From NCBI GenBank assembly GCA_002841315.1, contig PHEW01000003.1, positions 1 to 64,000 on the forward strand: a stretch of 64,000 nt of DNA. The letters run 5' to 3'. Source of the stretch: Actinobacteria bacterium HGW-Actinobacteria-4. Lineage in GTDB: Bacteria; Actinomycetota; Actinomycetes; Actinomycetales; Demequinaceae. Shown here piece by piece: positions 30,110 through 45,267 of the stretch; within the stretch, counting starts at the first letter, position 1; each line of letters opens with the position of its first letter. The position numbers were made by a program, and so were the translations under genes. Below the pieces are notes generated by a model, which did no database searches, was not told where the DNA came from, and saw nothing but the letters and a program-made list of their open reading frames with translations.

Positions 30110-30925
30110 CTAGTCCGAGACCTGATTGACTTCGCGGTCGCTGAGGCCGTGGTCCTCTGGGTACTCGGCGGCTCCTGGTAGGTAGACCCAGTGCCAGGGT
30201 TCGTCGGCTGCCGTTGACTGCGGTTGGATCCATCCCCAGGCAGGGGCGTTGTCCTCGAGCCAGGCGATGGGATCTTGGCCCTGAGACGTCTCGCACAGGT
30301 CAATGGCGAGTCCGTAGCCGTGTGCGCTGGCCCCGGCTGGAACGCCGCGACGGCGTTGGACCTCGGCTTGCTTGTTGGCGTCACGGTAGCCCTCGAGGAC
30401 GCAGATGTCCTTCCCCAGCTCCGTCTTGAACTGCTCGTTGAGGTGCGCCAAGGAGACCGCGGCGTCGGCGCGCAGTTGGCTCTGAAGGTCCTTGAGGAGG
30501 CAGAGTTCGCCTTCGGGCACGTAGCCGTTCGCGACTCCAGTCGTGAAACCGATACGCGGGACTTCACAGCCCAGCGCGAACTCTGGCACAAAGTCGGCGC
30601 CAGGGGACGGGCTGGGTGCCGGGCTGGGCCCCACACTGGGCGCAATGTACGGCGTAGGGCTAGGCGCTGGGCTGGGTGAGGGGTCAAAGGTGGGGCTCGG
30701 GCTGGTGGTTCCTGGCTGGATAGGGTTCGCAGTGAACGCCTGCGCCGCGAGGGTTGCGCCGCCCGCTAGCCCCAAGGCCGCGACGGCGGTCACGCCCCCG
30801 CGAACCGCGCGGTGGCGGCGCACGGTGCGGGTGACGGCGGAGTGGTCGGTGGCGAGGCGGCGCTCGGCGAACTGGGCGGCTCCCAGGCGGTTCAAGGTGT
30901 TGAGGTGGGCGAATGCGGTGTTCAT
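30110..30925 (-). CDS. ECF-partner membrane protein with M15 D,D-carboxypeptidase ectodomain
   Basis: N-terminal module LNTLNRLGAAQFAERRLA...RRHRAVR + TM; M15 motifs SAHGYGLAIDL and EPWHW. Confidence 0.85.
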   Translation of the reverse strand: MNTAFAHLNTLNRLGAAQFAERRLATDHSAVTRTVRRHRAVRGGVTAVAALGLAGGATLAAQAFTANPIQPGTTSPSPTFDPSPSPAPSPTPYIAPSVGPSPAPSPSPGADFVPEFALGCEVPRIGFTTGVANGYVPEGELCLLKDLQSQLRADAAVSLAHLNEQFKTELGKDICVLEGYRDANKQAEVQRRRGVPAGASAHGYGLAIDLCETSQGQDPIAWLEDNAPAWGWIQPQSTAADEPWHWVYLPGAAEYPEDHGLSDREVNQVSD

Positions 30926-31536
30926 GCTGGTCCTCCTTGAGGGGTGCTGCGGGAGACGACTCGGACGTTCAGGTGCTCGTGGGGTTCCTCGGCCGGGTCG
31001 TGCGGCGGTGAGAAGTCAACGTCGGCGCAACGGGTACGCAAGGTGGCGACGGCATCGGACAGATAGCGCTTGACGGTGCCGGTGGCGAGGCCCAGTTGTG
31101 CGGCGACGCCGGCCACGGGGAGATCCTCGAGGTAGCGGAGGACCACGCAGGCTCGCTCGCGCGGGGGGAGCGTGAGGATCGCGGCGTGGAGGTCCAGGGC
31201 TTGCGCGACGTCATGGGCGTGGTCGCTGTGGACGGTCTTGAGGTGCGCGTGCGCGGTGGGGGAGTGGATGTCGCCTGGGTCGCCGTCGGCGCGTTGGGGG
31301 CGCACGGCTTTGCGGCGGGTGCCGTCGATGAACGCGGTGGTGATGGCGCGCTTGACGTAGGCGTGCGTGGCGTCCAGGCCGTCGTGGCGGCGGGTGCGGC
31401 GGAAGGCGCGGACCAGGGCGTCTTGGAGGAGGTCCTCGGCGGCGTCGGCGTCCCCGGTGAGCACGTACGCGTACCCGAAGAGGGCCGCGCCGCGCTCGCG
31501 GACCAGCGCGTCCAGCGCGCTCTTCCAACTGCTCAT
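30922..31536 (-). CDS. ECF RNA polymerase sigma factor (SigE-like), module 1
   Basis: LFGYAYVLTGDADAAEDLLQDALVRAF; LPPRERACVVLRYLEDLPVAGVAAQLGLATGTVKRYLSDA. Confidence 0.9.
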   Translation of the reverse strand: MSSWKSALDALVRERGAALFGYAYVLTGDADAAEDLLQDALVRAFRRTRRHDGLDATHAYVKRAITTAFIDGTRRKAVRPQRADGDPGDIHSPTAHAHLKTVHSDHAHDVAQALDLHAAILTLPPRERACVVLRYLEDLPVAGVAAQLGLATGTVKRYLSDAVATLRTRCADVDFSPPHDPAEEPHEHLNVRVVSRSTPQGGPA

Positions 31537-31674
31537 TGCTCTATGGTCCCGTAGGTCATGAATGCTAGAACGCAGTTGGGTGGGGTTGGGTTGGGTGAGT
31601 CGCGAGGCGCGCGATGAAGCGCTTGGGGTCAGAGACGCGCGCGTATAGCCTGAGCGCGTTGCTCGGGAGGCCCT

Positions 31675-31752
31675 TTGAGTAAGCAGATCAACGTAGTCGG
31701 AGCCGTCGTCATTGGAGACGGGGTCGTACGTCGCGCCCAGCTCGACGGGTGA
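31675..31752 (+). pseudogene. Truncated N-terminus of a MutT/Nudix gene (remnant)
   Basis: TTG-start LSKQINVVGAVVIGDGVVRRAQLDG*; resembles the first strand of MutT-like proteins, no Nudix box follows. Confidence 0.45.
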
Positions 31753-31847
31753 CCCGAGCGCTCGGAACGATGGCGTCTACGAGGCATTTCTCAAGTTTGC
31801 AGGCGTCGGGCACGTTAGATTAGTCCTGACAAGAGAGCGAGGGCACG

Positions 31848-33167
31848 ATGGCCGAGATCTCCGGTGCGAAAGTGAAGAACTCCTCGCGGCTAGAACTCAT
31901 GCAGGCTGTTGCCGCTGAGTTCGGCATTTCCGACTCGCCGAATGGTACGCAGCGGGCGAACGTCAACGCTCTACTGGACCGGGTCTGCGAATCGAGACTT
32001 CCGCCTCAATCCCGAGACGACGATGTAGCGCGCAAGACCGAGGCCCTGCTAGAACATGTTGGCTTGGTCTACGATCCGTTCTGGGACACCAACGAGGGAG
32101 CAGGGGGCGATCCTCTCGAGATCTCAGAGCGCGCCCTCTCGAGGATTCTGTGTTCCTTGCGCGCTTACCCGCGTTGCTTTCTACTAAACGTTTCCGACGC
32201 CGCTGTGGGCGCGAAGTGGGAAGTTGACCCAGAAACTCGTTACAGGTATGACAGCAACGTGACGGGTAGAGTTCCGTTCAACCAGGCGGGGCCGGGCAGT
32301 CGGATCATCTACTACTCGACAAGCAACTCCTCGACTCACCCGATGCACTTCACGGCGTCCGCCAGAGTACGCTACATCGCACCCTCGAAGGAGGGGACGT
32401 GGGAGGCGCAACTGACGGGATACACGCCGTTCACAAAGCCGGTTGCGAAGGGTCGTCTGGAGTTACCGGGCTGGAACGTTCAACACGCGATCACCGAGAT
32501 CTCGGCCGAGACCTTTGACCGCTTGGTTGAAGCGGGTGGGGGAGTTCCCGCGGTTGATACGCCTCCCTCGGCGGTCCCGGACCCGGGGCCTCGCGTGGTG
32601 CTCACTGATGAGCGCGAAGAGGGACTCATTGAAGCGCGACTTCATGAATTGTTTCCAGTCGGCGATACTGCACCGCGACTCGAAGTACCTCAACAGTTAC
32701 CCGGGGGTGAACTGCTTGGCAGCGCCCCCATCGAGCCGCAGTACATCAAGGACGGCGCCCGCCTGCGCAACGCGAGTGCGGGCCCGGTGTTCAAGAGGTC
32801 CGCGAAACCGGCACTCGATCGAATCGCCGAGAAGCGCGCGATCGACATCGTTCGAGCGTCACTCGCACTAGACGGTTGGGAATTGGTGCGCGACTGCCAG
32901 GCCGACGGGGTCGGGTATGACCTCGAATTCGCTCGTGAGGACCGTAGTCTTCATGTCGAGGTCAAGGGCATTCAAGGGATGCGCCTCGACTTCAATCTCA
33001 CGCCAAAGGAACTCTGGTGTGCGCAGAATGACAACAACTGGGTCCTGGTCGCGGTCACGAGTGTGTTGTCGCCGGAGAACTTCGCGCCGGTGCTCCTAAC
33101 GAGAGATCGCGTAGTCAACGCGAGGATGGTGGTCACCGGGTACCGCCTATCGGTCGGTAGTGGTTGA
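31848..33167 (+). CDS. DUF3883-type nuclease-like protein of the R-M island
   Basis: C-terminal GYDLEFAREDRSLHVEVKGIQG (PD-(D/E)XK-like D...ExK) as in DUF3883; central GSRIIYYSTSN... region of unknown fold. Confidence 0.65.
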   Translation: MAEISGAKVKNSSRLELMQAVAAEFGISDSPNGTQRANVNALLDRVCESRLPPQSRDDDVARKTEALLEHVGLVYDPFWDTNEGAGGDPLEISERALSRILCSLRAYPRCFLLNVSDAAVGAKWEVDPETRYRYDSNVTGRVPFNQAGPGSRIIYYSTSNSSTHPMHFTASARVRYIAPSKEGTWEAQLTGYTPFTKPVAKGRLELPGWNVQHAITEISAETFDRLVEAGGGVPAVDTPPSAVPDPGPRVVLTDEREEGLIEARLHELFPVGDTAPRLEVPQQLPGGELLGSAPIEPQYIKDGARLRNASAGPVFKRSAKPALDRIAEKRAIDIVRASLALDGWELVRDCQADGVGYDLEFAREDRSLHVEVKGIQGMRLDFNLTPKELWCAQNDNNWVLVAVTSVLSPENFAPVLLTRDRVVNARMVVTGYRLSVGSG

Positions 33168-33281
33168 CGAAAGTGAGAGCCTCGCTCAGTCGACAACGGG
33201 CGAGCGGGCGGCGTTGGCTTTGGTGGAGTACCTGTAGCTAGCCTCCCGTCATTGTCAGCACCGTGCGGTAGCTTAGGTTGC

Positions 33282-34754
33282 ATGGGATTCAGCTTCGTGG
33301 ACCTCTTCGCGGGTATCGGTGGCTTTCACGGGGCGCTATCCGCGCTCGGCGGCACCGGGGTGCTTGCATCTGAGATCGACCCGAAGCCTGCGGCGGTGTA
33401 CCGGCGGATGTGGGGTCTCGAGCCGGCTGGTGACATTCGCCGATTGGCGACTGACGTGCAAACCAACGTTCCCGAGCATGCGGTGCTGGTGGGCGGATTT
33501 CCTTGTCAGCCGTTCAGCAAATCGGGTCGTCAACTCGGCATGACCGAGATCCGCGGGCAAATGTTCAACGAGATACTCAAGATCCTCGAGGTGCGCAAGC
33601 CTCCCGTTGTGATGTTCGAGAATGTCCGGAACATCGCAGGGCCAAGGCAGCGCCCCGTTTGGGACGCTATCGTCCGCGGCCTACGGGAGGCGGGCTACCG
33701 TACTCCCTCAGAACCGTGTGTTTATTCGCCTCACCTGTTGTCGAGAGATCTCGGGGGTGCACCACAGACCCGGGACCGCGTCTACATCCTCGGGACCTAT
33801 GTGGGCCGGGACCGTGCGTTGCGGGAAACCGACGTTGCCCCGATAATCGGCCGAACTCCCTCAAATGGCTGGGACCCAACTACTTGGGACCTCGAAGCCG
33901 ACGTTCTGGAAGTGGATGCGGCGATTCGCGACCCGTTCTTGTATTCCCTTAGCCCAGATGAAACTGCGTGGATCGAAACGTGGAACGACTTCCTCGCGAG
34001 AACTGAAGGAGCCGCGTTGCCGGGGCATCCGTTGTGGAGTCAGTACTGGCGCGCGGACGCAATCGTCGATCGGCGCGCGCCATCGTGGAAGCAGCAGTTC
34101 GAACGGCAAAATATGGCCTTCTATGCGCGGAACAGAGGTGCGATAGACGGTTGGTTCCAGGCGAACCCTCAGGTCAGGGCGTTCCCACTGTCAAGGCAGA
34201 AGTTTGAGTGGCAAGCAGGGGACTATCCACGCGACCTAACTAAGTGCTTGATCCAACTGCGACCTTCGGGTGTGCGCGTGAAGAAGCCAAACTATGCTCC
34301 CGCACTCGTGGCGATGGGGCAAACGCCCATCGTGGGCTCGAGAATGCGGCGGCTAACCATTCGTGAATCGGCGAGGCTACAGGGCTTCCCTGATTGGTTC
34401 GACTTTGGTGACCAGCGGGTTGCCCTGAGCTACCGACAACTCGGCAACGCCGTCCACCCAGGGGTGGTCTATCTTCTGCTTCGTCAGCACATCCTCCAAG
34501 ACCGTGAGGACATTTCGGCATCTTCGCGATGGGGCGCTGACCTCGTGCGCTCGGCGGTCGCTGCACCGGCGGCGCTAGACCCGAACCACGGAGTGGTTCG
34601 TCGGATGATTGCCGTGGGCGAGGCTAGCTCGCCGAACGGGCAATCTCAAGGCGCGAGCCTGGGTCCTCGCCGTTACGTTGCGGAAGCCAAAGAGTCCGAC
34701 GCTCACGGAGTTTTCGACTGTTCCATCGGGACCAACGCACAGTTGGTCTCGTAG
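33282..34754 (+). CDS. DNA (cytosine-5-)-methyltransferase
   Basis: FVDLFAGIGGFHGAL, GGFPCQPFSKSG, FENVRNI, RESARLQGFPDWF, YRQLGNAVHP. Confidence 0.95.
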   Translation: MGFSFVDLFAGIGGFHGALSALGGTGVLASEIDPKPAAVYRRMWGLEPAGDIRRLATDVQTNVPEHAVLVGGFPCQPFSKSGRQLGMTEIRGQMFNEILKILEVRKPPVVMFENVRNIAGPRQRPVWDAIVRGLREAGYRTPSEPCVYSPHLLSRDLGGAPQTRDRVYILGTYVGRDRALRETDVAPIIGRTPSNGWDPTTWDLEADVLEVDAAIRDPFLYSLSPDETAWIETWNDFLARTEGAALPGHPLWSQYWRADAIVDRRAPSWKQQFERQNMAFYARNRGAIDGWFQANPQVRAFPLSRQKFEWQAGDYPRDLTKCLIQLRPSGVRVKKPNYAPALVAMGQTPIVGSRMRRLTIRESARLQGFPDWFDFGDQRVALSYRQLGNAVHPGVVYLLLRQHILQDREDISASSRWGADLVRSAVAAPAALDPNHGVVRRMIAVGEASSPNGQSQGASLGPRRYVAEAKESDAHGVFDCSIGTNAQLVS

Positions 34755-34763
34755 AGTTCTGCG

Positions 34764-35954
34764 ATGGCACTTTCCGCCCGAATGCCCCCGCTGCGCGAGT
34801 GGCAGTTGGTTGCGCTCGAGCGATGGAGCGAACATGGCCGCGGTGTAGCGAGTGTCGTCACTGGCGGCGGAAAGACAACATTCGCGATCTCCTGCGTAGC
34901 TCAACAGCTGTCACTGGACGCACGCCTCAGAGTCCTCGTTGTGGTGCCAACTCGCGCGTTGCAGGATCAATGGACTGTTGAGTTGGCGAGAGCCTTTGGA
35001 CTAGCCCACGGTGACATCGGTACCAGTGGCTCAGCGGTCCTCTCTTCTGATGAGCAAGTAGTGGTGCTCGTGGCGAATACTGCTCGCAAGGTCGTTCCAG
35101 CAATGGTCAGTAAGGACCGATGGATGGTTGTCGCCGACGAGTGTCACCGGTATGGCTCGCCGCTCAACCGGCTTGCGGTGCGCGGCGAATGGCGCTCGAC
35201 ATTGGGACTGTCCGCGACTCCAACTCGCGAGTACGACAATTGGTTCGAAGAGTTTGTTGCGTCCGAGCTGGGGCCGGTCATTTTCGAGTACGACCATGCC
35301 GACGCGCTTGCCGACGGCGTGCTGACACCGTTCGCGGTAGTCAACTACAAGGTCCCGCTGACGGAGTCGGAAGGCGCTGAGGTGGCGCGACTGACCCGCC
35401 GGATTGCGGCGTTGATGAGTGGCGCATCCGCGGAGACTGATGGTTCTCTGGAGAGAGTGCTTCAGGCGCGTGCGCGAGTTGTCCAGCGCGCGCGAGCGAG
35501 ATTGCCAGCCGCGGTGAAGATCATGGAGTACCACCGTGGCGAGAAGGCCATTGTCTTTCACGAATCCATAGATGCTGCCGATAGTTTGGCCTCGCTGTTA
35601 CGGGATGCGGGTCATCGTGTCGGAACATATCACTCCCGAATGGACAGCGCTGCAAGACTCCGCGACCTTTTTCTTTATCGCAACGGGCAGTCAGACGTAT
35701 TAGTCACCTGTCGAGCGCTCGACGAAGGCTTCGACGTGCCAGATGCAACGTTTGGGTTGATCTGCGCTTCGACTGCGAGCACTCGGCAGCGCATCCAGCG
35801 AATGGGGCGAGTACTCCGAAGCGCCACTGGAAAGTCGGCCGCGGTCGTAGCAACTATCTACGCGGGTGATGGAGAGCAAGGCAGGCTCGAAGACGAAGAA
35901 CTCGAACTTCAGGGAGTGGCAGAAGTTAAGTGGCTCGAGGTGGCATTCGGTTGA
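34764..35954 (+). CDS. SF2 DEAD/DEAH-type helicase
   Basis: VTGGGKTTFA, VVADECHRYGS, GLSATPTR, TCRALDEGFDVPDA, RIQRMGRVLRS. Confidence 0.92.
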   Translation: MALSARMPPLREWQLVALERWSEHGRGVASVVTGGGKTTFAISCVAQQLSLDARLRVLVVVPTRALQDQWTVELARAFGLAHGDIGTSGSAVLSSDEQVVVLVANTARKVVPAMVSKDRWMVVADECHRYGSPLNRLAVRGEWRSTLGLSATPTREYDNWFEEFVASELGPVIFEYDHADALADGVLTPFAVVNYKVPLTESEGAEVARLTRRIAALMSGASAETDGSLERVLQARARVVQRARARLPAAVKIMEYHRGEKAIVFHESIDAADSLASLLRDAGHRVGTYHSRMDSAARLRDLFLYRNGQSDVLVTCRALDEGFDVPDATFGLICASTASTRQRIQRMGRVLRSATGKSAAVVATIYAGDGEQGRLEDEELELQGVAEVKWLEVAFG

Positions 35955-36739
35955 GCAATTTCATCACGGAGACAGAGACCTACGAGCCAGTCCGCTTGCG
36001 CGAAGACGAGTTCGAGTCGTTGCTGGCTACCATGTTTGGTAAGTACGCCGTTGGGTGGCACTGGTTCGACTGCAAACCTCTTCTCGACAGTGAGTACGGC
36101 CGTGTGCGACCAGACGCAATTCTGCTCCATGAGACTGCTCGACGCTGGTGGGTGGTTGAGGTCGAGTTGGCCAGTCATCCTGAATCGCACTTCGATACTC
36201 AGTTCCGACAACTGGCTGCAGCCCGGTATGGTGCCGCTGTTGTCGAAGCGGTGAAGGCACCCATCCCGGCGGACCTGCTCGCCCACGCGCTCAAGCTTGC
36301 CGAGGATCTTCCTCCGGAGTTGCTCTGTGTAGCCGACGCTGCGACCGCGAACCTCACAAGGAGTTGTCGGACTCATGGATTCCGTCTCGCGACGATGACG
36401 CCGGCGCGGAGCAAGAATGGTGGCTATGGTTTGGCCGTAGACACATTTCCGGACGAACTGATTTCAAGCGACCGGAGAACTGAATACCCCTTGGTGCTTC
36501 AAGACGACCTTTGGGGCGGGCGGCTGTTCGCGCAGTTACCGAGGAATTTCCCCAACAAGCAGAGGGTTCGCCTCCGGCACAGGGGCCTGGTGCATGACAT
36601 CCGGATTTTTGCGATGGCAACCTCGCGCAGGGCGCTGCTGCCGCCAGATGTCGACGTCAAAGCACGTCAGTACCCTATGTTGGTTTCAGTGGATCCAGTT
36701 AACGACCTGTTTGAACTAGAGATGAGGAGCACGAAGTGA
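35930..36739 (+). CDS. Putative PD-(D/E)XK-like nuclease of the R-M island
   Basis: RVRPDAILLHETARRWWVVEVEL D-x(n)-ExE pattern; TTG start at about 35951 also possible. Confidence 0.55.
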   Translation: MARGGIRLSNFITETETYEPVRLREDEFESLLATMFGKYAVGWHWFDCKPLLDSEYGRVRPDAILLHETARRWWVVEVELASHPESHFDTQFRQLAAARYGAAVVEAVKAPIPADLLAHALKLAEDLPPELLCVADAATANLTRSCRTHGFRLATMTPARSKNGGYGLAVDTFPDELISSDRRTEYPLVLQDDLWGGRLFAQLPRNFPNKQRVRLRHRGLVHDIRIFAMATSRRALLPPDVDVKARQYPMLVSVDPVNDLFELEMRSTK

Positions 36740-38271
36740 CTGAGACGCTGGACACCTACGTTGAGATACGACCCGAGTCTGACATTTTGGAAACCTACCG
36801 CCGACTCTCGTATCTGCCGTGGTATGCGATCGCGGAGTTTGTTGACAATGCGACTTGGAACTTTGAGCAACACAAGGAAGCGATGTCTGAAGTATTGGGT
36901 GCTCCGGCAGAGTTGACAGTTGCGATCTTCTACGACCGAGACAAAGGAACCCTCAGTATCGCAGATGACTCTAATGGCATGGGTCTAGACGAGTTCAAGC
37001 GCGCAATGCAACTTGCGAAGCCGCCGACGAACACGAGTGGGCGATCTGAGTTCGGAATGGGCCTCAAGACCGCAGCGTGCTGGATGGGCCCTCGTTGGGA
37101 GGTCACGAGCAAGCGACTTGGTGACACGCTCGAGTTTCACTGTGGCGTCGACTTGGCGAGGCTGAAGGCCGACCGTCCTGAGAGCTTGAACATCGGAGTA
37201 CGTGGTGGGATCGACGAAGCAGCCCACTACACGAGAGTCGACATTGAAGGCATGCACGAGTACGACCGCGTCTTTGTGGGAAGAACTATCGGCAAGATTA
37301 AGAGTGAGCTCGCCTCGATCTACAGGCGGGACCTCCAAACAGGCCAGGTTCGCATCACCTTTAACGGGGAGACCTTGTCGTGGGATACGCCTTCCCTGCT
37401 AGACGAGCAGTTCGGGTCTGAGACTCGTGCTTGGCGAAAGCCAGTGAACTTCGAGGTTCATGGGCTCAGGGTGACTGGCTGGATCGGGCTGCTGGCCAAA
37501 GGTCGAGCTGCCGATGCGGGCTTCCATCTGTTTCGACGGGGGAGACTGATTCAAGGTGGACCGAGCCAGGGCTGGAAGCCCTGGGAGATATTCAAGGCGG
37601 TTAACAGCTTTCAGTCGCAACGACTGATCGGCGAACTTGACTTCGACGACTGGCGTGTAAGTCACACAAAGGACAGTCTGGACATGTCTGGCGCCGCCCA
37701 TGAAGAGTTGGTGGATCAGCTCGAAGCATTGTGCTCTGACTACATTGCAAAGGCGAAAGAGTCTCGCAAAGACGAGGGCCGCCCGGGCTTGAGCCGGGCG
37801 GCTGCGGAGTCCGTGGTCGAAGACACTCGTGACGACCTGGTCGATAGCGAAGAACTTGGTGCGGCTCTGGCAGTGATCGAGCAAGGAGTGTTCCCGAGTG
37901 ATGATCCCGACGAAACCGCGAGTGTTGAGGCTGTCAAGGAAGCGCTGGGAGACCCGGTAGAGATCAGGTTCGGTGGCACCGCATACCCGACGCTCAGCCT
38001 GGTGCTGAGTGACCTCAGCAGCGACTCGGAACCTCTCGCGCGCGTTGGCTTCCCAGCAGACGATGCTGTCACTCTCGTGCTCAATCTCAGACACCCGTTC
38101 GTCACACGCTTTGTCGGTGACGACGAACGAGCGATGAAACTCCTTGCGCATTCGCTGTATGTCGATGCGCTCGTCGAGCGGATCTCGAGAAAGCATCGGA
38201 ATCTTTCGCCGGCGCAATTGCGACTTGTGAAGGACAGTTTGCTCCGGGAACTCCGCTCGCACGAAGCCTAG
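36736..38271 (+). CDS. GHKL (HSP90/MutL/MORC-like) ATPase
   Basis: N-box AEFVDNATWN, G1 DDSNGMG, G2 GRSEFGMGLKTA; GTG start, 4-nt overlap with the upstream gene. Confidence 0.8.
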   Translation: MTETLDTYVEIRPESDILETYRRLSYLPWYAIAEFVDNATWNFEQHKEAMSEVLGAPAELTVAIFYDRDKGTLSIADDSNGMGLDEFKRAMQLAKPPTNTSGRSEFGMGLKTAACWMGPRWEVTSKRLGDTLEFHCGVDLARLKADRPESLNIGVRGGIDEAAHYTRVDIEGMHEYDRVFVGRTIGKIKSELASIYRRDLQTGQVRITFNGETLSWDTPSLLDEQFGSETRAWRKPVNFEVHGLRVTGWIGLLAKGRAADAGFHLFRRGRLIQGGPSQGWKPWEIFKAVNSFQSQRLIGELDFDDWRVSHTKDSLDMSGAAHEELVDQLEALCSDYIAKAKESRKDEGRPGLSRAAAESVVEDTRDDLVDSEELGAALAVIEQGVFPSDDPDETASVEAVKEALGDPVEIRFGGTAYPTLSLVLSDLSSDSEPLARVGFPADDAVTLVLNLRHPFVTRFVGDDERAMKLLAHSLYVDALVERISRKHRNLSPAQLRLVKDSLLRELRSHEA

Positions 38272-38585
38272 GAAAGATCTCTTCGTCACGAAACGGGTGC
38301 GTGCGACGGGAGTTGCGCCCGTCACTCGAATTGCCGCGCGGTGGTCTGGATTCTAGGAGACAGGATTTCGTTGTCGCCCGTGAAGTCACGCGAACAGCGC
38401 GGCACCTCAACGAGGCGATCGCTCGTCAGCGCATCGGACGTGCAATGGCTTGATGTCCTCGCCACCTCCGAAGTAAGGGTGCGGCTGAGTCGCGACTCCT
38501 TGACCTCTTAGGCAATAGACTCCATTACCTAGCGCGCCCACCATGGGAGCGGGCACCAACGCCCGCAACCAGGAAGGCAAACCCC

Positions 38586-39050
38586 ATGACCACGCAAACC
38601 ACCAGGCCGGCCGCAGCAACAACCACCACCACTCTCACCGCCCCCTCACACATCTACCCCGCCACGCTCCTCCAGCGCTCCATCACAGCCGACTACCTCC
38701 TAGCCATCCCCATGGCCCTCAACTTCACCGCCCTCGCATCACCGGCAGGCACCCTCCTAGGTCTCCCCACCAGCTTCACCCTGGGCCTGGGCATCTTCCT
38801 AATCTTCTGGGCCACCTTCATGTGGCGCGTGAGTCGCACCTCGCCCACCCCGCTCGCCGGCACGGTCACCATCCTCGCGGTCAACGTCGCATGGGTCGCG
38901 CTCAGCGTCGCCATCGCCGCCGGCGCCTGGTTCGAGCTCACCACCACCGGCATCGCCTTCGTGGCCGCCCAAGCAGTCGCCGTCACCGCGGTCACCACAC
39001 TCGAGGTGCTCGCCGCCCGCCACGTCTACCGGCCAGCCACCACCGCATGA
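38586..39050 (+). CDS. Hypothetical four-TM membrane protein
   Basis: Hydrophobic segments; ATGA overlap with downstream regulator. Confidence 0.6.
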   Translation: MTTQTTRPAAATTTTTLTAPSHIYPATLLQRSITADYLLAIPMALNFTALASPAGTLLGLPTSFTLGLGIFLIFWATFMWRVSRTSPTPLAGTVTILAVNVAWVALSVAIAAGAWFELTTTGIAFVAAQAVAVTAVTTLEVLAARHVYRPATTA

Positions 39051-39913
39051 CCACAACCGCCGGTCCCGCCGAGCACCTCGCCCCAGTGGGCGAGGTGCTG
39101 CGGCACTGGCGCGGCATTCGCCGGGTGAGCCAGATGGACACCGCGCACATGGTGCACGTCTCGCCCCGGCACCTCAGCTTTGTGGAGAACGGCCACGCCC
39201 GGGCCAGCCGCGAGCTGCTGCAGCGCCTGGGCCACGCCCTCGACATCCCGTTACGCGACCGCAACCGGTTGCTGCTCGCCACCGGCTACGCGCCCGAGTT
39301 TCGCGACCTCCACGCCGCGCCACACCACGACCCCGCGATGCTCGCCACCCTCCAACAGATCATGCAAGCCGCCGAGCCACTCCCCGCCATCGTGTTCGAC
39401 CGCCACTGGAACGTGGTGGCCCTCAACTCCGGCGCCGCGATCTTTGCCGAAGACGCCGCCCCACATCTGCTGACACCACCCCTGTCCACGCTCCGCCTGC
39501 TCGTGCACCCCCAGGGAATCGGCCACCGCATCGAGGACCGCGACCGCCTGTGCCGCAGCATGATCCACCGCCTGGAACGCCAGATCGCCGCCACCGGCGA
39601 CCCCACGCTCGCCGCCCTCCACGCCGAACTTGGCCAGCACCTCCCGGAAGCCACAGCAAAACCAGCCCCAGCATCGGCTGCCCACCACGCGAGCGATCTC
39701 GCGGAGTCCTTCCGCATCGCCTACCGGGGCCACGCGCTGTCCTTCATCAGCACGCTCGCGGTGATCGGTTCGCCGCGCGACGTGCTCGCGTCAGAGCTCG
39801 CCATCGAGACCTTCTATCCGGCCGATGCTCCCACGCGCGCCTTTCTCGCTCGCCCCGACGCCATCGCGCCCGAGCACCTCGCGATAGTCCGCGCGCTCAC
39901 GCCAGCGGGTTAG
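39047..39913 (+). CDS. XRE-family regulator with MmyB-like ligand-binding domain
   Basis: LRHWRGIRRVSQMDTAHMVHVSPRHLSFVENGHARASRELLQRLGHAL. Confidence 0.85.
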   Translation: MTTTAGPAEHLAPVGEVLRHWRGIRRVSQMDTAHMVHVSPRHLSFVENGHARASRELLQRLGHALDIPLRDRNRLLLATGYAPEFRDLHAAPHHDPAMLATLQQIMQAAEPLPAIVFDRHWNVVALNSGAAIFAEDAAPHLLTPPLSTLRLLVHPQGIGHRIEDRDRLCRSMIHRLERQIAATGDPTLAALHAELGQHLPEATAKPAPASAAHHASDLAESFRIAYRGHALSFISTLAVIGSPRDVLASELAIETFYPADAPTRAFLARPDAIAPEHLAIVRALTPAG

Positions 39914-39952
39914 CGGCCGAACAGGAATACCCGCACCCACTACCCTGAAAAC

Positions 39953-40600
39953 ATGACACACATAGGAATCCTCGGCGCCGGCAACATCGGCTCCAACGTG
40001 GCACGCGCGGCCGTCGCCGCAGGCCACACCGTGACCATCTCCAACTCCCGCGGCCCAGAGTCTCTCGCAGACCTCATCGCCGAGCTAGGCCCCGGCGCCG
40101 CCGCAGGCACCACCCACGAAGCCGCGACCGCAGGTGAACTGGTGTTGGTCGCGATACCCTTGGGGCGTATCGGCGAGATCGACGACGCCCCTCTCGAGGG
40201 CAAGATCGTCATGGACGCGAACAACTACTACCCCCAGCGCGACGGCCGCATCGCGGCGCTAGACCGCAACGAGTCCACCACCTCCGAGCTACTCCAAGCC
40301 CGTCACCCTGGGGCCCACGTGGTCAAGACGTTCAACAACATCGTCGCCGCCGAGATCCCCACGGACGGAACCCCGCCCGGCACACTGGTCCGCCGCGCGC
40401 TACCCATTGCAGGCAATGACGCCGACGCCAAGGTTGCCGTCACTGACTTCCTGGACTCCTTGGGCTACGACGCGGTGGACATGGGGCCACTGTCCGAGAG
40501 CTGGCGAAGCGAGCGCGACACCTCCGCGTATGGCGTGCGCACCAACGCCGACGAGTTGCGCGAACTCCTCGCCACTACTGCCCGGACGGTTCAGGAGTAG
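39953..40600 (+). CDS. NADPH-dependent F420 reductase-like NAD(P)-binding protein
   Basis: IGILGAGNIGSNVARAAVAAGHTVTISNSRGPESL. Confidence 0.8.
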   Translation: MTHIGILGAGNIGSNVARAAVAAGHTVTISNSRGPESLADLIAELGPGAAAGTTHEAATAGELVLVAIPLGRIGEIDDAPLEGKIVMDANNYYPQRDGRIAALDRNESTTSELLQARHPGAHVVKTFNNIVAAEIPTDGTPPGTLVRRALPIAGNDADAKVAVTDFLDSLGYDAVDMGPLSESWRSERDTSAYGVRTNADELRELLATTARTVQE

Positions 40601-40622
40601 AACCGGTCAGGAGTAGCGCCTG

Positions 40623-41570
40623 CTACGCCTCGTTCTCGGCGTACCACTCCTGAAGCAACCGCACATTGGCTTGGTGGCCCTCGAAGTCTTCCGCAAAGCG
40701 CGTCTCGCCGGTAGTGAGGTTCACCGTCACAAAGAACATCCAGTCGCCTTCGGCCGGGTTCACGGCCGCGTCGATGTCCGCCACCGACGGCGAAGCGATC
40801 GGCCCCGGAGGCAGACCCACGTTCCTGTAGGTGTTGTAGGGGGACTCGGTTGCACGTTCCTCCGCGGTGGTGAACACTCCCTCCGTGACGGCGAGGTACT
40901 TGACCGTGGAATCCAACTCGAGTTGCTGATCGATCTCCAGGCGGTTGTAGATCACCCTCGCCACCAAGGGCCGGTCCTCGTCGAGCCTGGCCTCCATCGC
41001 AATGAGCGACGCCACGGTCAGCACCCGCCGGTAGTCGTCGGGCGCCACGCCAGCGGCATCCAGTGTCGCGATGGTCCGCGCTACCGCCTGCCGCGCGAGG
41101 TCCTCTGGCCCTGTCACCGAGTACTCGCCGGGTGCCACCCAGCCGTCGGCGTCGCCCTCAGCCTCAGGAGGCAATGCCGCCTGAAGCGCAGTCACGAAGT
41201 CGCGGTCAGACATGTTGGCGTTCGCGACTTCGTCGACGACCTTATGCATCGTCTTGCCCTCGTGCAGCGTGAGCTCGAACGTCTCCACGGGCGCAGTCTC
41301 GCTGGGCTCTGGGGAAGGACTTGCGCTCACCGACTCACTCGGCGTCACACCCGGCAACACCGCAGTGCCCCGGCTCTGCACAGCCCAGGCTCCAGCAGCA
41401 ACAGCCCCCACCAGCACAGCGCTCGCGGCTCCGGTTCCCACGGCACGGATGGTGCGCCGTCGGCCGATGCGCGAAATCACCCCAGCGGAGTCCTCACCCA
41501 GGCGGGAGTCACCAAAGGCGGCGAGCCCGTCGCGTTCCATGTCAGTAAGCGTCGCTAGCAGAGTGCTCAT
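40623..41570 (-). CDS. ECF-partner membrane protein with MltG/YceG-like endolytic transglycosylase ectodomain
   Basis: N-terminal module LTDMERDGLAAFGDSRLG...RRRTIR + TM; VASLIAMEARLDEDRPLVARVIYNRLEIDQQLELDSTVKYL and SPYNTYRNVGLPPGPIASPS are YceG signatures. Confidence 0.85.
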   Translation of the reverse strand: MSTLLATLTDMERDGLAAFGDSRLGEDSAGVISRIGRRRTIRAVGTGAASAVLVGAVAAGAWAVQSRGTAVLPGVTPSESVSASPSPEPSETAPVETFELTLHEGKTMHKVVDEVANANMSDRDFVTALQAALPPEAEGDADGWVAPGEYSVTGPEDLARQAVARTIATLDAAGVAPDDYRRVLTVASLIAMEARLDEDRPLVARVIYNRLEIDQQLELDSTVKYLAVTEGVFTTAEERATESPYNTYRNVGLPPGPIASPSVADIDAAVNPAEGDWMFFVTVNLTTGETRFAEDFEGHQANVRLLQEWYAENEA

Positions 41571-42121
41571 GAGCGGTTCTCCTTGTCGATGACGGCAACA
41601 CGGTGAGTGCCGCCGGACAGCATGTCGTTGAGGTCTTCAAGATCGGGGTGGCTCTCGCGCAGGCGGGCCAGCGCATCTGAGAGGTAGCGCTTGACGGTGC
41701 CCGGCGCGATGTTCAGCTCGCGTGCCACGCCCTCGACGGGGAGGTCATCCAAGTAGCGCAGCACGATGCACGCGCGCTCGCGGGGAGGCAGGGACAGGAT
41801 GGCCCGGCGGAGTGCGACCTGGGCGGTGACGGCGTCGGCATGGTCGCCCACCGCGCCGGAGGCCTCCACGCCAGCGAGCTCCGGCCGTGCCTTGGCCCGC
41901 CGCTTCCCGTCGATGAACGCGCTCAACATGGCGCGCTTCACGTACACGTGGGCTTGGTCAATCGAATACCCACCGCGACCACGCTGGAAGGTGCGGACTA
42001 GGGCGTCCTGGACCAGGTCATCGGCCGCATGTTTGTCCCCCGTGAGGACGTAGGCGTAGCCGAACAAGGCGGGGCCGCGCTCGCGGAGCAGCGACTCGAC
42101 CAAGGGCTTCCAGGTGTTCAT
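41567..42121 (-). CDS. ECF RNA polymerase sigma factor (SigE-like), module 2
   Basis: LFGYAYVLTGDKHAADDLVQDALVRTF; LPPRERACIVLRYLDDLPVEGVARELNIAPGTVKRYLSDAL. Confidence 0.9.
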   Translation of the reverse strand: MNTWKPLVESLLRERGPALFGYAYVLTGDKHAADDLVQDALVRTFQRGRGGYSIDQAHVYVKRAMLSAFIDGKRRAKARPELAGVEASGAVGDHADAVTAQVALRRAILSLPPRERACIVLRYLDDLPVEGVARELNIAPGTVKRYLSDALARLRESHPDLEDLNDMLSGGTHRVAVIDKENRS

Positions 42122-42184
42122 GAGGCCAGCTCAAAGGTAGTCATGATGGCTAGTACGCCGCGGGGGCGTGTTTGGGTGGGTGAA

Positions 42185-43138
42185 TTATGGGTGGAACGTC
42201 TGGTCGCGTAGCTGCTGGGCGTAAATCTGCTCGGGGGTGAGAGCCGGCGCCTCCACAGTGGGCTCGCCCCAGGCGGGATTGCGCGGCGTCCCGAACTGGC
42301 TGTAGAGGGACGCGGGGATGAGGTCCGTGAGTTCGTCGAGCACGTCCAGATGCCGCATGGCCGTGTCCACCGGCGTGAGCCCCGGCCACCAACTCAGCAA
42401 CGTGCCGCCGTCCACGGAGATCGCCATGCCCTCGACGTCCGGCTGTAACAGGCGTTCCATCATGCGCGGGTGCAAGAACGCGTGCGCGCCGGCAGGGTTG
42501 TCCGTGACCACGCGCCAGCGAGCGTTGAACGCTGCGGACTCTACGTGGAGGTCTTGACCGCCCAGCGAGGTCATGAGCTTGTCGTAGCCGCCCTGGGGCA
42601 GCAGCATCACGGGCGGAAGCACGGCGGGGAGCTCGAGCTGCTCCACCGAATACCGATACTTGTGTGACGTCCAGACGGTGTAGATCGCGGCCACGCGCGT
42701 GCCGATCGATCCCCACGCGAGCGCGCTGACCCGCTGGTTGGCCTTCACTCCCACGGGGAAGGTGTGGAAGCGGCCCGCGGCTCGGGGTGCCTTGCCGGGC
42801 CGGTAGTGCCAGCCGCGGTGTGTCAGGTCCGAGCGGTTCAGATCCAGCCCGCGCCACAGCAACAGTGCGCCGGCAATGCCCGGCAACCACGTCGCGATGG
42901 CCCACGTCCAGAAGAAGCCCTCGCCGCTAGCGAGCCCGCCGGCATCGTCGCTGTTGAACTCGCCCTGGAAGGAGATGGCTTCGGCGTCAAAGTCAAAGAC
43001 ACCGAACACGGTCACGAACGCAATCGGCGTGAGCACAAAGCCCATGAAGCCCACCACCAGCCATGGCCACAGCACCGGCCTGCGCGCGCGGCGGCGCTCA
43101 ATGGGATTGCGGCGCTTACGCATGATGCCCCCTTGCAT
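42185..43138 (-). CDS. Hypothetical membrane protein
   Basis: Two hydrophobic segments, long soluble C-terminus. Confidence 0.6.
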   Translation of the reverse strand: MQGGIMRKRRNPIERRRARRPVLWPWLVVGFMGFVLTPIAFVTVFGVFDFDAEAISFQGEFNSDDAGGLASGEGFFWTWAIATWLPGIAGALLLWRGLDLNRSDLTHRGWHYRPGKAPRAAGRFHTFPVGVKANQRVSALAWGSIGTRVAAIYTVWTSHKYRYSVEQLELPAVLPPVMLLPQGGYDKLMTSLGGQDLHVESAAFNARWRVVTDNPAGAHAFLHPRMMERLLQPDVEGMAISVDGGTLLSWWPGLTPVDTAMRHLDVLDELTDLIPASLYSQFGTPRNPAWGEPTVEAPALTPEQIYAQQLRDQTFHP

Positions 43139-43231
43139 TCGGCCGATGCCGGCCGGGCTTGCGCTTCAGTTTTCCACAGTTGCGCGGGTTGAGGGGGCGA
43201 TGTCGCTGGCGAGACTTACGCTGGTCTCACC

Positions 43232-43765
43232 ATGAACGAGTCGCTCCCCGCCTACCGGATCGCGCGCAAGCGTGTGAAGTACATGCGGATCAACGTTAAG
43301 GCACCCCACGGTGAGGTGGTGGTGAGCGCGCCCACGTTTGTGAGCGAGCGCGCCGTGCGCGACTTTGTGGCGTCCAAGGCGGCGTGGATCGCGAAGACTC
43401 AGGAGCGCATCGGCCGCATGCCCGCGCCGCTCCAAGCCGGGCCGGAAGCCGAGCGCCTGCGCCGAGAACTCCGCGCCACCGTGCCCGGGCTGCTCGAGTA
43501 CTGGGCGGACTTCATGGGGCTTGAGGTGCCCGAGTTCACGTTGCGCCGCATGACCACGCGCTGGGGCACATGCAACACGCAGACCAGGCGCATCGCGCTG
43601 AGCCTCGAGCTGGGCCGGCGGGACATGGAGCTGCTCGAGTACGTGATTGTGCACGAGCTCTGCCACCTGCTGGAGCGCAGCCACAATGCGCGCTTCTACG
43701 CCATCATGGACCGGACCTTGCCGGACTGGAAAGACAAGCGCAAGTTGCTGAATGGGCGGGTGTAG
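43232..43765 (+). CDS. YgjP/SprT-like (DUF45) metallopeptidase
   Basis: RRMTTRWGTCNTQTRRIALS ... VIVHELCHLLERSHNARFYAIMDRTLPDWKDKRKLLN. Confidence 0.88.
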   Translation: MNESLPAYRIARKRVKYMRINVKAPHGEVVVSAPTFVSERAVRDFVASKAAWIAKTQERIGRMPAPLQAGPEAERLRRELRATVPGLLEYWADFMGLEVPEFTLRRMTTRWGTCNTQTRRIALSLELGRRDMELLEYVIVHELCHLLERSHNARFYAIMDRTLPDWKDKRKLLNGRV

Positions 43766-43774
43766 AGCGCGGCG

Positions 43775-44713
43775 TTAGTTGGGCGCCTGGTACATGAGCT
43801 CGCCGTCCAGGTACACGTTTCCTACGTCCACGGTGTAGAGCGTGACCTCGTCTGCCACCGCGAGTTCGCTTCGCGCGACTCGCACGTAGACCGACACTCG
43901 CACAGACTCGGGGTACGCGATCACGTCCGGCACCCACGACTGGCTTTCGGGGGTCACGCCCATGGTCACCGCGATGTCGTAGTAGTCGGAGACGGCGTGG
44001 GTGCTCGCGCCTCGCCGTGTGGCTCCTGCCGGGAACGGCTCTGAAGCGGAACTCAACATGCCGGGTTCAAAGATCTCCCACCTGCCGCGCGGTTGTTCCG
44101 CTGCCCACACGCTCGTCGTGTACTCGCCGTTGGGCCCTGTCTCGGTGGCTATCGGGCCGTCTGTGGTCCACGTGAGTTCGGTTCCCACTGCCAGGATGTC
44201 GAAGTCCCCGCCGCTGATGTTCGTGACCTCGTAGGTCACTGTTGATGTCTGCGCGGTCGAATCCAGATGCAGGTCCGCGCGAATCTCCAACAGTTCTGTG
44301 CCAGGTAGCACCATGTGGTCGCACTCCAAACTCATGGTGTGTTCGAACTGAATCGGGCTACCCGGGTAAATCGCGGGTTCCGTCACGCGTCCCAAATCCT
44401 CCCAGTTGCACCACGCGAACTGCTGCCCCTCGACACCGCCGCTCCACTGCACGCCTTCCCGGCTCAGCGCCTGCTCAAGCGAAGCGTCAGCCAGCGGTCC
44501 GGCGGGGGAGTCGATTGCGCCGATGCCATACGCGGTCATCGCGCCCAGCCCCACCACACCAGCAGTTCCCACGCCGGTCGCCACCGCGCGCGTGGCACGT
44601 CGGCGCTTAACCGGGCCCCGCAAGTGAGCAGTCCCTTGCGCCAGGCGTGACTCATCGAAGTGGGCCTCGCCCACGCGAACCAGGTCATCGAGTTCAAGAA
44701 GTCCCATGGTCAT
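43775..44713 (-). CDS. ECF-partner membrane protein with uncharacterised ectodomain
   Basis: N-terminal module LDDLVRVGEAHFDESRLA...RRRATR + TM. Confidence 0.75.
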   Translation of the reverse strand: MTMGLLELDDLVRVGEAHFDESRLAQGTAHLRGPVKRRRATRAVATGVGTAGVVGLGAMTAYGIGAIDSPAGPLADASLEQALSREGVQWSGGVEGQQFAWCNWEDLGRVTEPAIYPGSPIQFEHTMSLECDHMVLPGTELLEIRADLHLDSTAQTSTVTYEVTNISGGDFDILAVGTELTWTTDGPIATETGPNGEYTTSVWAAEQPRGRWEIFEPGMLSSASEPFPAGATRRGASTHAVSDYYDIAVTMGVTPESQSWVPDVIAYPESVRVSVYVRVARSELAVADEVTLYTVDVGNVYLDGELMYQAPN

Positions 44714-45267
44714 GCTTCCTTTCTGGTCACGACGGTCACGGAGATGTGGTCGTCGTCAGCGATGTCTTCTGCGCTGAGTCCAAGGTGGGCGGCGGCCTCG
44801 CCCAAGCGCGCCAGCCCGCTGTGGACGTACTTGCGGACCGTGCCGGGCGCGAGGCCAAGGTCATGGGCGATCTGCACCATGGACATGTCGTCGTAGAAGC
44901 GGAGCACCACGCACAGGCGCTCACGGGGTGGCAGTGAGAGCAGGGCGCGCTGGATGGCGAGGCGGGTGTCGATGGCGGCCGATGCATCGGGCAAGGCCGC
45001 GTCGGCGCTTACGTTGGTGTTTTCGCGGGTGTGGCGGGCCAGGCGGCGGTCGTCGAGGAACAGGGTGCGGATGGTCTTGTAGGTATAGGACTCGGCGGCT
45101 TCGATGCTGGTGAGGTTGCGCGAGCGCGAGAAGACCTTGATCAGGGCGGACTGGACCAGGTCGTCGGCGTCTTGCGTGGAGCCGGTGAGCATGTAGGCGT
45201 AACCAAAGAGGCGGCGGCCGCGTTCGCGGACAAGCGTCTCCATCAGGTGGGGCCAAGTGGCTGCCAT
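44710..45267 (-). CDS. ECF RNA polymerase sigma factor (SigE-like), module 3
   Basis: LFGYAYMLTGSTQDADDLVQSALIKVF; LPPRERLCVVLRFYDDMSMVQIAHDLGLAPGTVRKYV; start set at MAATWPHL. Confidence 0.88.
   Translation of the reverse strand: MAATWPHLMETLVRERGRRLFGYAYMLTGSTQDADDLVQSALIKVFSRSRNLTSIEAAESYTYKTIRTLFLDDRRLARHTRENTNVSADAALPDASAAIDTRLAIQRALLSLPPRERLCVVLRFYDDMSMVQIAHDLGLAPGTVRKYVHSGLARLGEAAAHLGLSAEDIADDDHISVTVVTRKEA

Follow-up and report, generated by a model that had tools for sequence, protein, structure and literature searches.

Paired ECF sigma factor and membrane partner genes of Demequina share a short zinc-free N-terminal module and differ in their ectodomains

The window analysed here, a 64,000-nt stretch of Demequina DNA, contains three gene pairs, each composed of an ECF sigma factor and a membrane protein. 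These are probably autoregulated ECF sigma factors with their own membrane anti-sigma factors, which would combine a short, zinc-free, class II-like segment with exchangeable ectodomains. The open reading frames proved to be as a sequence-only reading had described them: all three pairs lie on the minus strand, and in each (3/3) the sigma gene overlaps the partner gene by 4 nt (ATGA). Sigma 1 (30922..31536), sigma 2 (41567..42121) and sigma 3 (44710..45267) are of the SigE type, and sigma 3 is the most divergent among them. The SigE-family ECF model TIGR02983 matched them best, with scores of 117, 121 and 115 bits, respectively, all of which are under its curated cut-off of 141.55 bits. The partners are encoded on the same strand at 30110..30925, 40623..41570 and 43775..44713. 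Each begins with an N-terminal module (N-module) and a transmembrane segment, followed by a Pro/Ser linker and a VanY/M15 D,D-carboxypeptidase ectodomain in partner 1, a linker and a YceG/MltG ectodomain in partner 2, and a beta-rich ectodomain without a Pfam family in partner 3.

Using pairwise alignments and a profile, we placed the N-module at approximately residues 1-44 of partner 1 (30794..30925, minus strand), partner 2 (41439..41570, minus strand) and partner 3 (44582..44713, minus strand). The N-termini of the three partners are homologous, with pairwise BLASTP E values of 5e-9, 1e-8 and 1e-7. They had been read as aligning without gaps, which applies to two of the pairwise alignments, over 64-66 aa, whereas the third has a 2-residue gap after residue 42. 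Among 228 related partners, the N-module is 39-51 aa long (median 44), with large hydrophobic residues in column 8 (100%) and column 4 (89%) and Arg/Lys in column 37 (98%); L4 and L8 are located about 25 residues upstream of the transmembrane segment. The AF2 model of a paralogue (L007) predicted helices at residues 2-15 and 19-62, with a pLDDT of about 65-76 over the N-module. The HxxxCxxC motif, already reported as missing, is absent from the three window partners and from the first 80 aa of 228/228 related partners, and just one of these 228 N-modules contains a cysteine. The proposal of a new sigma-binding module stands as far as the segment itself is concerned, which is real, widespread and zinc-free and has no family of its own in Pfam, NCBIfam or PDB; that it binds the sigma factor is a well-supported inference. 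Mean-field DCA between sigma factor and partner found no enrichment of couplings in the N-module helices over the transmembrane columns, either with 228 pairs (Neff 173) or among the top inter-protein couplings with 301 pairs (Neff 233).

The pairing extends far beyond the window. The same genome carries 13 sigma/partner pairs, compared with the three that were first seen, and sigma matches were found in 47/47 Demequinaceae genomes searched, at 2-17 per genome. The 13 paralogues sit in a genome of 2.5 Mb. In close relatives, a partner with the two-helix N-module of about 44 aa and a transmembrane segment comes after 254 of the 255 sigma genes. When the search started from the N-module, an ECF sigma gene was located immediately upstream in 48 of the 50 sampled matches elsewhere in the class (29/30 strong and 19/20 weaker ones). 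In the genome of the window, the number of N-module matches equals that of sigma pairs (13), and 12/12 among the matches listed adjoin a sigma gene. The searches from both sides clearly show that the ECF linkage is not sporadic. More distant SigE-type sigma factors (100-130 bits) often lack the module, which was found next to 34/71 of them. The pairs are partly clustered, with three in the window and six on contig 1, as expected of local tandem duplication, so that adjacency might have arisen by duplication or by chance without any functional coupling. The 254/255 linkage contradicts this explanation, and the same linkage occurs in scattered single copies across many families of the class; we regard it as scarcely credible.

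The Pfam scan agreed with the earlier view that the three window ectodomains are unrelated to each other (VanY/M15, YceG/MltG and one unrecognised). Across the related partners, the ectodomains fall into 53 BLAST clusters, throughout which the N-module is retained. They are mostly beta-rich, and the majority have no recognisable enzyme domain or sign of peptidoglycan activity. The description of the window ectodomains as cell-wall active holds for partners 1 and 2 and was rejected for partner 3, which has no Pfam match. A beta-rich, Demequina-specific domain in which two cysteines are conserved is no more than a distant relative of the partner 3 ectodomain (E = 4e-4), for which AF2 prediction with six relatives gave a pLDDT of 38 and no usable fold. 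For L007, the predicted ectodomain has a beta-rich core, and its comparison with PDB folds gave query-normalised TM-scores of about 0.2 and no assignment.

The peptidoglycan-enzyme ectodomains are confined to one sigma clade. In partner 2, YceG (PF02618) was matched with E = 1e-49 and 169.5 bits (gathering cut-off 32.4); its catalytic region, PF02618 positions 68-274, lies at 40659..41282 on the minus strand and contains the nearly invariant Glu193. MltG ectodomains occur in at least 18 distinct pairs and keep the catalytic Glu193 in 17/18; the relative L109 has lost it, so the pairs do not all need an active enzyme. In partner 1, VanY (PF02557) was matched with E = 6e-8 and 33 bits (gathering cut-off 25), and the domain (residues 150-250; 30176..30478, minus strand) contains the zinc/catalytic motifs SxHxxGxAxD and ExWH, here SAHGYGLAID and EPWH. 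The conserved motifs suggest that the MltG and M15 ectodomains are catalytically active. Among the pairs, a VanY/M15 ectodomain is found only in this window copy. The N-module of partner 1 is 60-62% identical to those of some MltG-type partners, and the nearest relative of sigma 1 beyond its own genome (about 70-72% identical) has an MltG-type partner. Judged by sequence, partner 1 is chimeric, with an N-module of MltG type joined to a Demequina M15 peptidase. The nesting in the sigma tree favoured a swap from MltG to M15 (lnL +12 to +25), and the AU test did not formally reject MltG monophyly (p = 0.055 and 0.11); the chimera reading is independent of this nesting. The genome also encodes a separate full-length MltG and a conserved free-standing M15 protein, so the ones in the window are additional, dedicated copies.

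Upstream of 196/228 sigma genes we found a CAAC-N16/18-CGT motif (consensus CCCAAC), compared with 16 in reversed controls. With a spacing of 17 alone, it was present upstream of 168/228 sigma genes and in 0/228 sigma coding sequences. Sigma 1 is preceded by a CCCAAC-N17-CGT promoter of ECF type (31570..31595, minus strand), and no clear copy was found upstream of sigmas 2 and 3. Since most of the sigma/partner operons have such a promoter, they look autoregulated. The genome contains 46 matches to CCCAAC-N17-CGT, whereas the reversed pattern gave 23. Of the 30 matches that were examined, most lie in coding sequence, and those well placed between genes belong mostly to the sigma operons, so that no wider regulon can be claimed.

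This type of promoter, together with the catalytic residues conserved in M15 and in 17/18 MltG ectodomains, would also suit a partner that is mainly an output, that is, a membrane-anchored effector (here peptidoglycan enzymes) under sigma control, with the N-module as a mere anchor. However, a plain anchor would not stay linked to a sigma gene or persist over 53 unrelated ectodomain clusters, its conserved features (L4 and L8) would not be expected so far upstream of the transmembrane segment, and no enzyme domain can be recognised in most partners, which makes this explanation unlikely. Control of the enzymes in cis by the sigma factor, the alternative offered in the sequence-only reading, is compatible with the autoregulatory-type promoter of the operons. 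ECF membrane partners usually inhibit their sigma factors; the translational coupling and autoregulation suit either sign of control, and the present data do not tell the two apart. In our view it is highly unlikely that the partner binds the sigma factor but acts as a co-activator, or both positively and negatively as reported for RskA, a dual-function activator-inhibitor (PMC7509140).

The architecture of the pairs matches that of clostridial RsgI, which favours the anti-sigma reading. Class I anti-sigma factors (ASDI/ZAS) have an N-terminal four-helix domain, usually of about 100 aa and in curated sets no shorter than 50 aa (PMC7406223); with a median of 44 aa and HxxxCxxC in 0/228, the N-module does not fit this class or a zinc-binding type, and this assignment was rejected. 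It resembles class II of the CnrY type as a zinc-free cytoplasmic segment of fewer than about 50 aa with two helices before the transmembrane segment, encoded next to an ECF sigma gene, but it is actinobacterial, carries large, variable ectodomains and has no sequence match to CnrY. In the CnrY type, the helices clasp sigma2 and sigma4 and prevent RNAP from binding. The N-module profile, searched against PDB chains to E = 10, matched no anti-sigma chain, CnrY included, and nothing else relevant; known anti-sigma classes share little sequence among themselves (PMC7406223). The RsgI/SigI systems of Clostridium thermocellum likewise comprise many paralogous sigma/membrane anti-sigma pairs per genome, with a conserved short N-terminal domain, a transmembrane segment and swapped ectodomains, which include a catalytic GH10 and a peptidase-like one (PMC12203970). 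In contrast, the Demequina sigma factors match ECF/SigE models rather than SigI, the N-module is unrelated in sequence, and the ectodomains are peptidoglycan enzymes or beta-rich instead of plant-polysaccharide binders; domain scans of the partners found no RsgI domain and no autocleaving periplasmic domain. Neighbours of the CU044_5270 family show a weak N-terminal match to some distant partners, but the scores of individually scanned partners are 16.7-20.8 bits against a cut-off of 100. ECF52/53 proteins such as SCO4117 also couple an actinobacterial ECF sigma factor to a transmembrane segment and an outer wall- or carbohydrate-related domain, but as one fused protein with a zinc-finger anti-sigma domain and a carbohydrate-binding ectodomain (PMC8999054), whereas Demequina has two genes and no zinc motif. 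By description, the neighbour of Streptomyces RS00060 is also a one-transmembrane ECF neighbour, proposed as an anti-sigma factor of unknown family, but it has 102 aa and no ectodomain enzyme (PMC11256431).

In the favoured anti-sigma reading, the partner would hold the sigma factor inactive through its N-module, while the ectodomain outside the membrane would serve as an exchangeable input. An outside signal would release the sigma factor, most likely through proteolysis of the partner (the genome encodes a site-2-type protease), and the freed sigma factor would fire its own operon from the CCCAAC-N17-CGT promoter. For two of the window partners, which belong to one sigma clade, the input is likely the binding or turnover of peptidoglycan substrate, because their ectodomains would act on nascent peptidoglycan and keep the catalytic residues; induction of the operon would then yield more peptidoglycan enzyme as well. 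The suggested coupling of peptidoglycan state to transcription is reasonable for this clade, but does not extend to the beta-rich ectodomains that prevail elsewhere. A genus-wide sensor array is conceivable but rather unlikely: up to 17 ECF sigma factors would use about one promoter consensus and the same restraint of about 44 aa with different ectodomain triggers, active MltG and M15 domains would act as sensors, and wall turnover would gate the transcription of shared targets.

If the anti-sigma reading is correct, regulators that are recognisable through a simple 44-residue signature would become known for a large and so far uncharacterised class of actinobacterial ECF sigma factors, and one sub-clade would connect peptidoglycan enzymes with sigma control directly and in a way open to testing. 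Given the common promoter, one may ask by what means 13 paralogues avoid crosstalk, or whether they exploit it. The exchanged ectodomains are natural chimeras for engineering sensor inputs, and the pairs with cell-wall enzymes may be a transcriptional route by which the cell senses or adjusts its wall.

Three sigma/partner pairs were found at exactly the coordinates proposed in the sequence-only reading, all on the minus strand: sigma 1 at 30922-31536 with its partner, a putative anti-sigma factor, at 30110-30925; sigma 2 at 41567-42121 with its partner at 40623-41570; and sigma 3 at 44710-45267 with its partner at 43775-44713. In each pair the two genes overlap by 4 nt (ATGA), and BLASTP confirmed that the partners' N-termini are homologous over the first ~64 residues (E 5e-9, 1e-8, and 1e-7). 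The best model for the sigmas was SigE-family TIGR02983, at 115-121 bits, under the 141.55 cut-off. The ectodomains also agreed with that reading: VanY/M15 in partner 1 (PF02557, E 6e-8), YceG/MltG in partner 2 (PF02618, E 1e-49), and no match in Pfam or NCBIfam in partner 3, whose ectodomain is distant kin of a beta-rich Demequina domain in which two cysteines are conserved. In many sigmas, region 4 is followed by a tail whose end carries a loosely conserved V.V..R motif (for example at 30922-31000, 41567-41640, and 44710-44790 in the window). A lower-GC island between pairs 1 and 2 (31848-38271) probably specifies a Druantia-like or related defence system: its products are a NO VEIN-domain protein, a PbeA-like helicase, an HATPase_c_3 protein, and a C5-cytosine methylase that PADLOC places near Druantia DruM (E 4e-151).

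The 2.52 Mb Demequina-type host genome encodes 13 such pairs, found by SigE-model search and inspection of downstream genes. Six of them cluster in a ~25-kb stretch (C1:91-118 kb; loci L261, L262), two on the minus and four on the plus strand, with differing ectodomains. A profile of the 13 sigmas found matches in every one of the 47 Demequinaceae genomes, 2 to 17 per genome at E<=1e-20, counts that outside the host genome may include ordinary ECF sigmas. Among sigma genes of at least 180 bits with enough downstream sequence in the fetched loci, 254/255 were followed by a partner with the N-terminal segment (N-module), 155 of the 254 with the exact -4 overlap; only L139 lacked a matching downstream reading frame. 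The N-module accompanied distant SigE-type sigmas (100-130 bits) less often (34/71). The linkage thus delimits a sigma subfamily. In reverse, a profile of N-module plus TM (61 sequences) matched 157 of the 247 genomes of the class. It gave 13 matches in the host genome, the number of its sigma pairs, and 12/12 of those listed adjoin a sigma. An ECF sigma lay directly upstream of 29/30 fetched top matches and 19/20 weaker ones, chosen by rank or score, not at random. The proposed ECF linkage is thus not sporadic. At L230 (G192) the order is reversed: the gene for an N-module protein, without an upstream sigma, closely precedes that of a SigE-type sigma, and both are on the same strand.

The N-module is 39-51 aa long (median 44) and, as previously noted for the window, lacks the zinc motif (0/228 partners). 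Large hydrophobic residues occupy columns 4 (89%), 8 (100%), 29 (72%), and 33 (69%), and a basic block ends at the membrane, with Arg/Lys at column 37 in 98%. AF2 modelling of a paralogue (L007, 24 sequences) predicted a helix at 2-15 and a continuous helix at 19-62 into the membrane. In class II anti-sigma CnrY, two helices embrace the sigma (PMC4598750, PMC7406223); the N-module resembles it in size and predicted two-helix form, although a PDB search found no sequence relation. The architecture of the pairs has a known precedent in RsgI/SigI of C. thermocellum, where sigma/anti-sigma paralogues are likewise numerous and the swapped ectodomains are in some cases catalytic (PMC12203970). The N-module has no convincing family match in Pfam, NCBIfam, or PDB. 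A literature search, with the 2021 ECF reclassification outside its coverage, found no description of it; a Streptomyces study (PMC11256431) gave the one-TM neighbour of an ECF the label of an anti-sigma "of an unknown family".

The ectodomains of 228 unique pairs formed 53 BLAST clusters, many of which merged by profile comparison into one beta-rich superfamily common to Demequina, Cellulomonas, and Microbacteriaceae. Pfam gave only single matches among 50 representatives (YceG, VanY, PQQ/BamB propeller, BNR, cupredoxin, DUF4232, aRib, and a few weaker), so the description "cell-wall-active ectodomains" fits one sub-clade and not the family, nor partner 3. All 18 MltG-type ectodomains matched PF02618, and 17/18 kept the catalytic Glu. 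In the L109 partner (G045, 835-2001), from another Demequinaceae genus, both the YNTY motif and this Glu have been lost, as though the protein were retained for sensing only. The host genome has a separate full-length MltG besides the window copy, which matched only profile positions 68-274.

Partner 1 is, by its matches, chimeric. Its first ~92 residues align with the N-terminal parts of MltG-type partners from other Demequina (49% identity, E to 1e-15). Its residues ~128-254 align with M15 proteins that stand alone and occur genus-wide, the likely source of its ectodomain. This conserved family (C16:6798-7520 in the host; L244, L248, L258, L263) has a different basic N-terminus (THRRRK) ahead of one TM. 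Sigma 1 shares about 70-72% identity with a sigma whose partner is of the MltG type, and trees placed it among such sigmas, as they did those of the cluster 4 ectodomain type; a single clade of MltG-type sigmas was not formally rejected by the AU test (p 0.055, 0.11).

Unbiased dyad counting found CAAC-N17-CGT in 140/207 non-redundant regions upstream of sigma genes (maximum 22 for any dyad after shuffling). With spacing 16-18, CAAC...CGT occurred in 196/228 upstream regions versus 16 reversed controls, and with spacing 17 in 168/228 versus 0/228 in sigma coding sequence. The consensus CCCAAC(G/C)...CGT(C/T) lies about 40 bp ahead of the start codon, is typical of ECF promoters, and is common to nearly all ectodomain clusters. 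Pair 1 carries it at 31570-31595, and no clear copy was found upstream of pairs 2 and 3. Among 30 matches examined in the host genome, the well-placed intergenic ones were mainly at sigma operons, which suggests self-activation as the main output among promoters that match the consensus.

In the simplest account, each pair is an ECF sigma that regulates its own operon and a membrane anti-sigma factor translated along with it. We infer sigma binding, inhibition, and a signal: the N-module would hold the sigma, the ectodomain would take in the signal, and proteolysis of the partner would free the sigma; the host genome encodes one canonical site-2 protease. In a covariation analysis of sigma and partner (mean-field DCA, 301 pairs), N-module helices were not enriched over TM columns among the top couplings between the two proteins. 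MltG cuts glycan strands and VanY removes terminal D-Ala. The enzyme ectodomains of the window clade keep their catalytic motifs intact and are, judged by family, enzymes of nascent peptidoglycan, so that a loop in which substrate or turnover is sensed and more enzyme is supplied would be likely in this clade.
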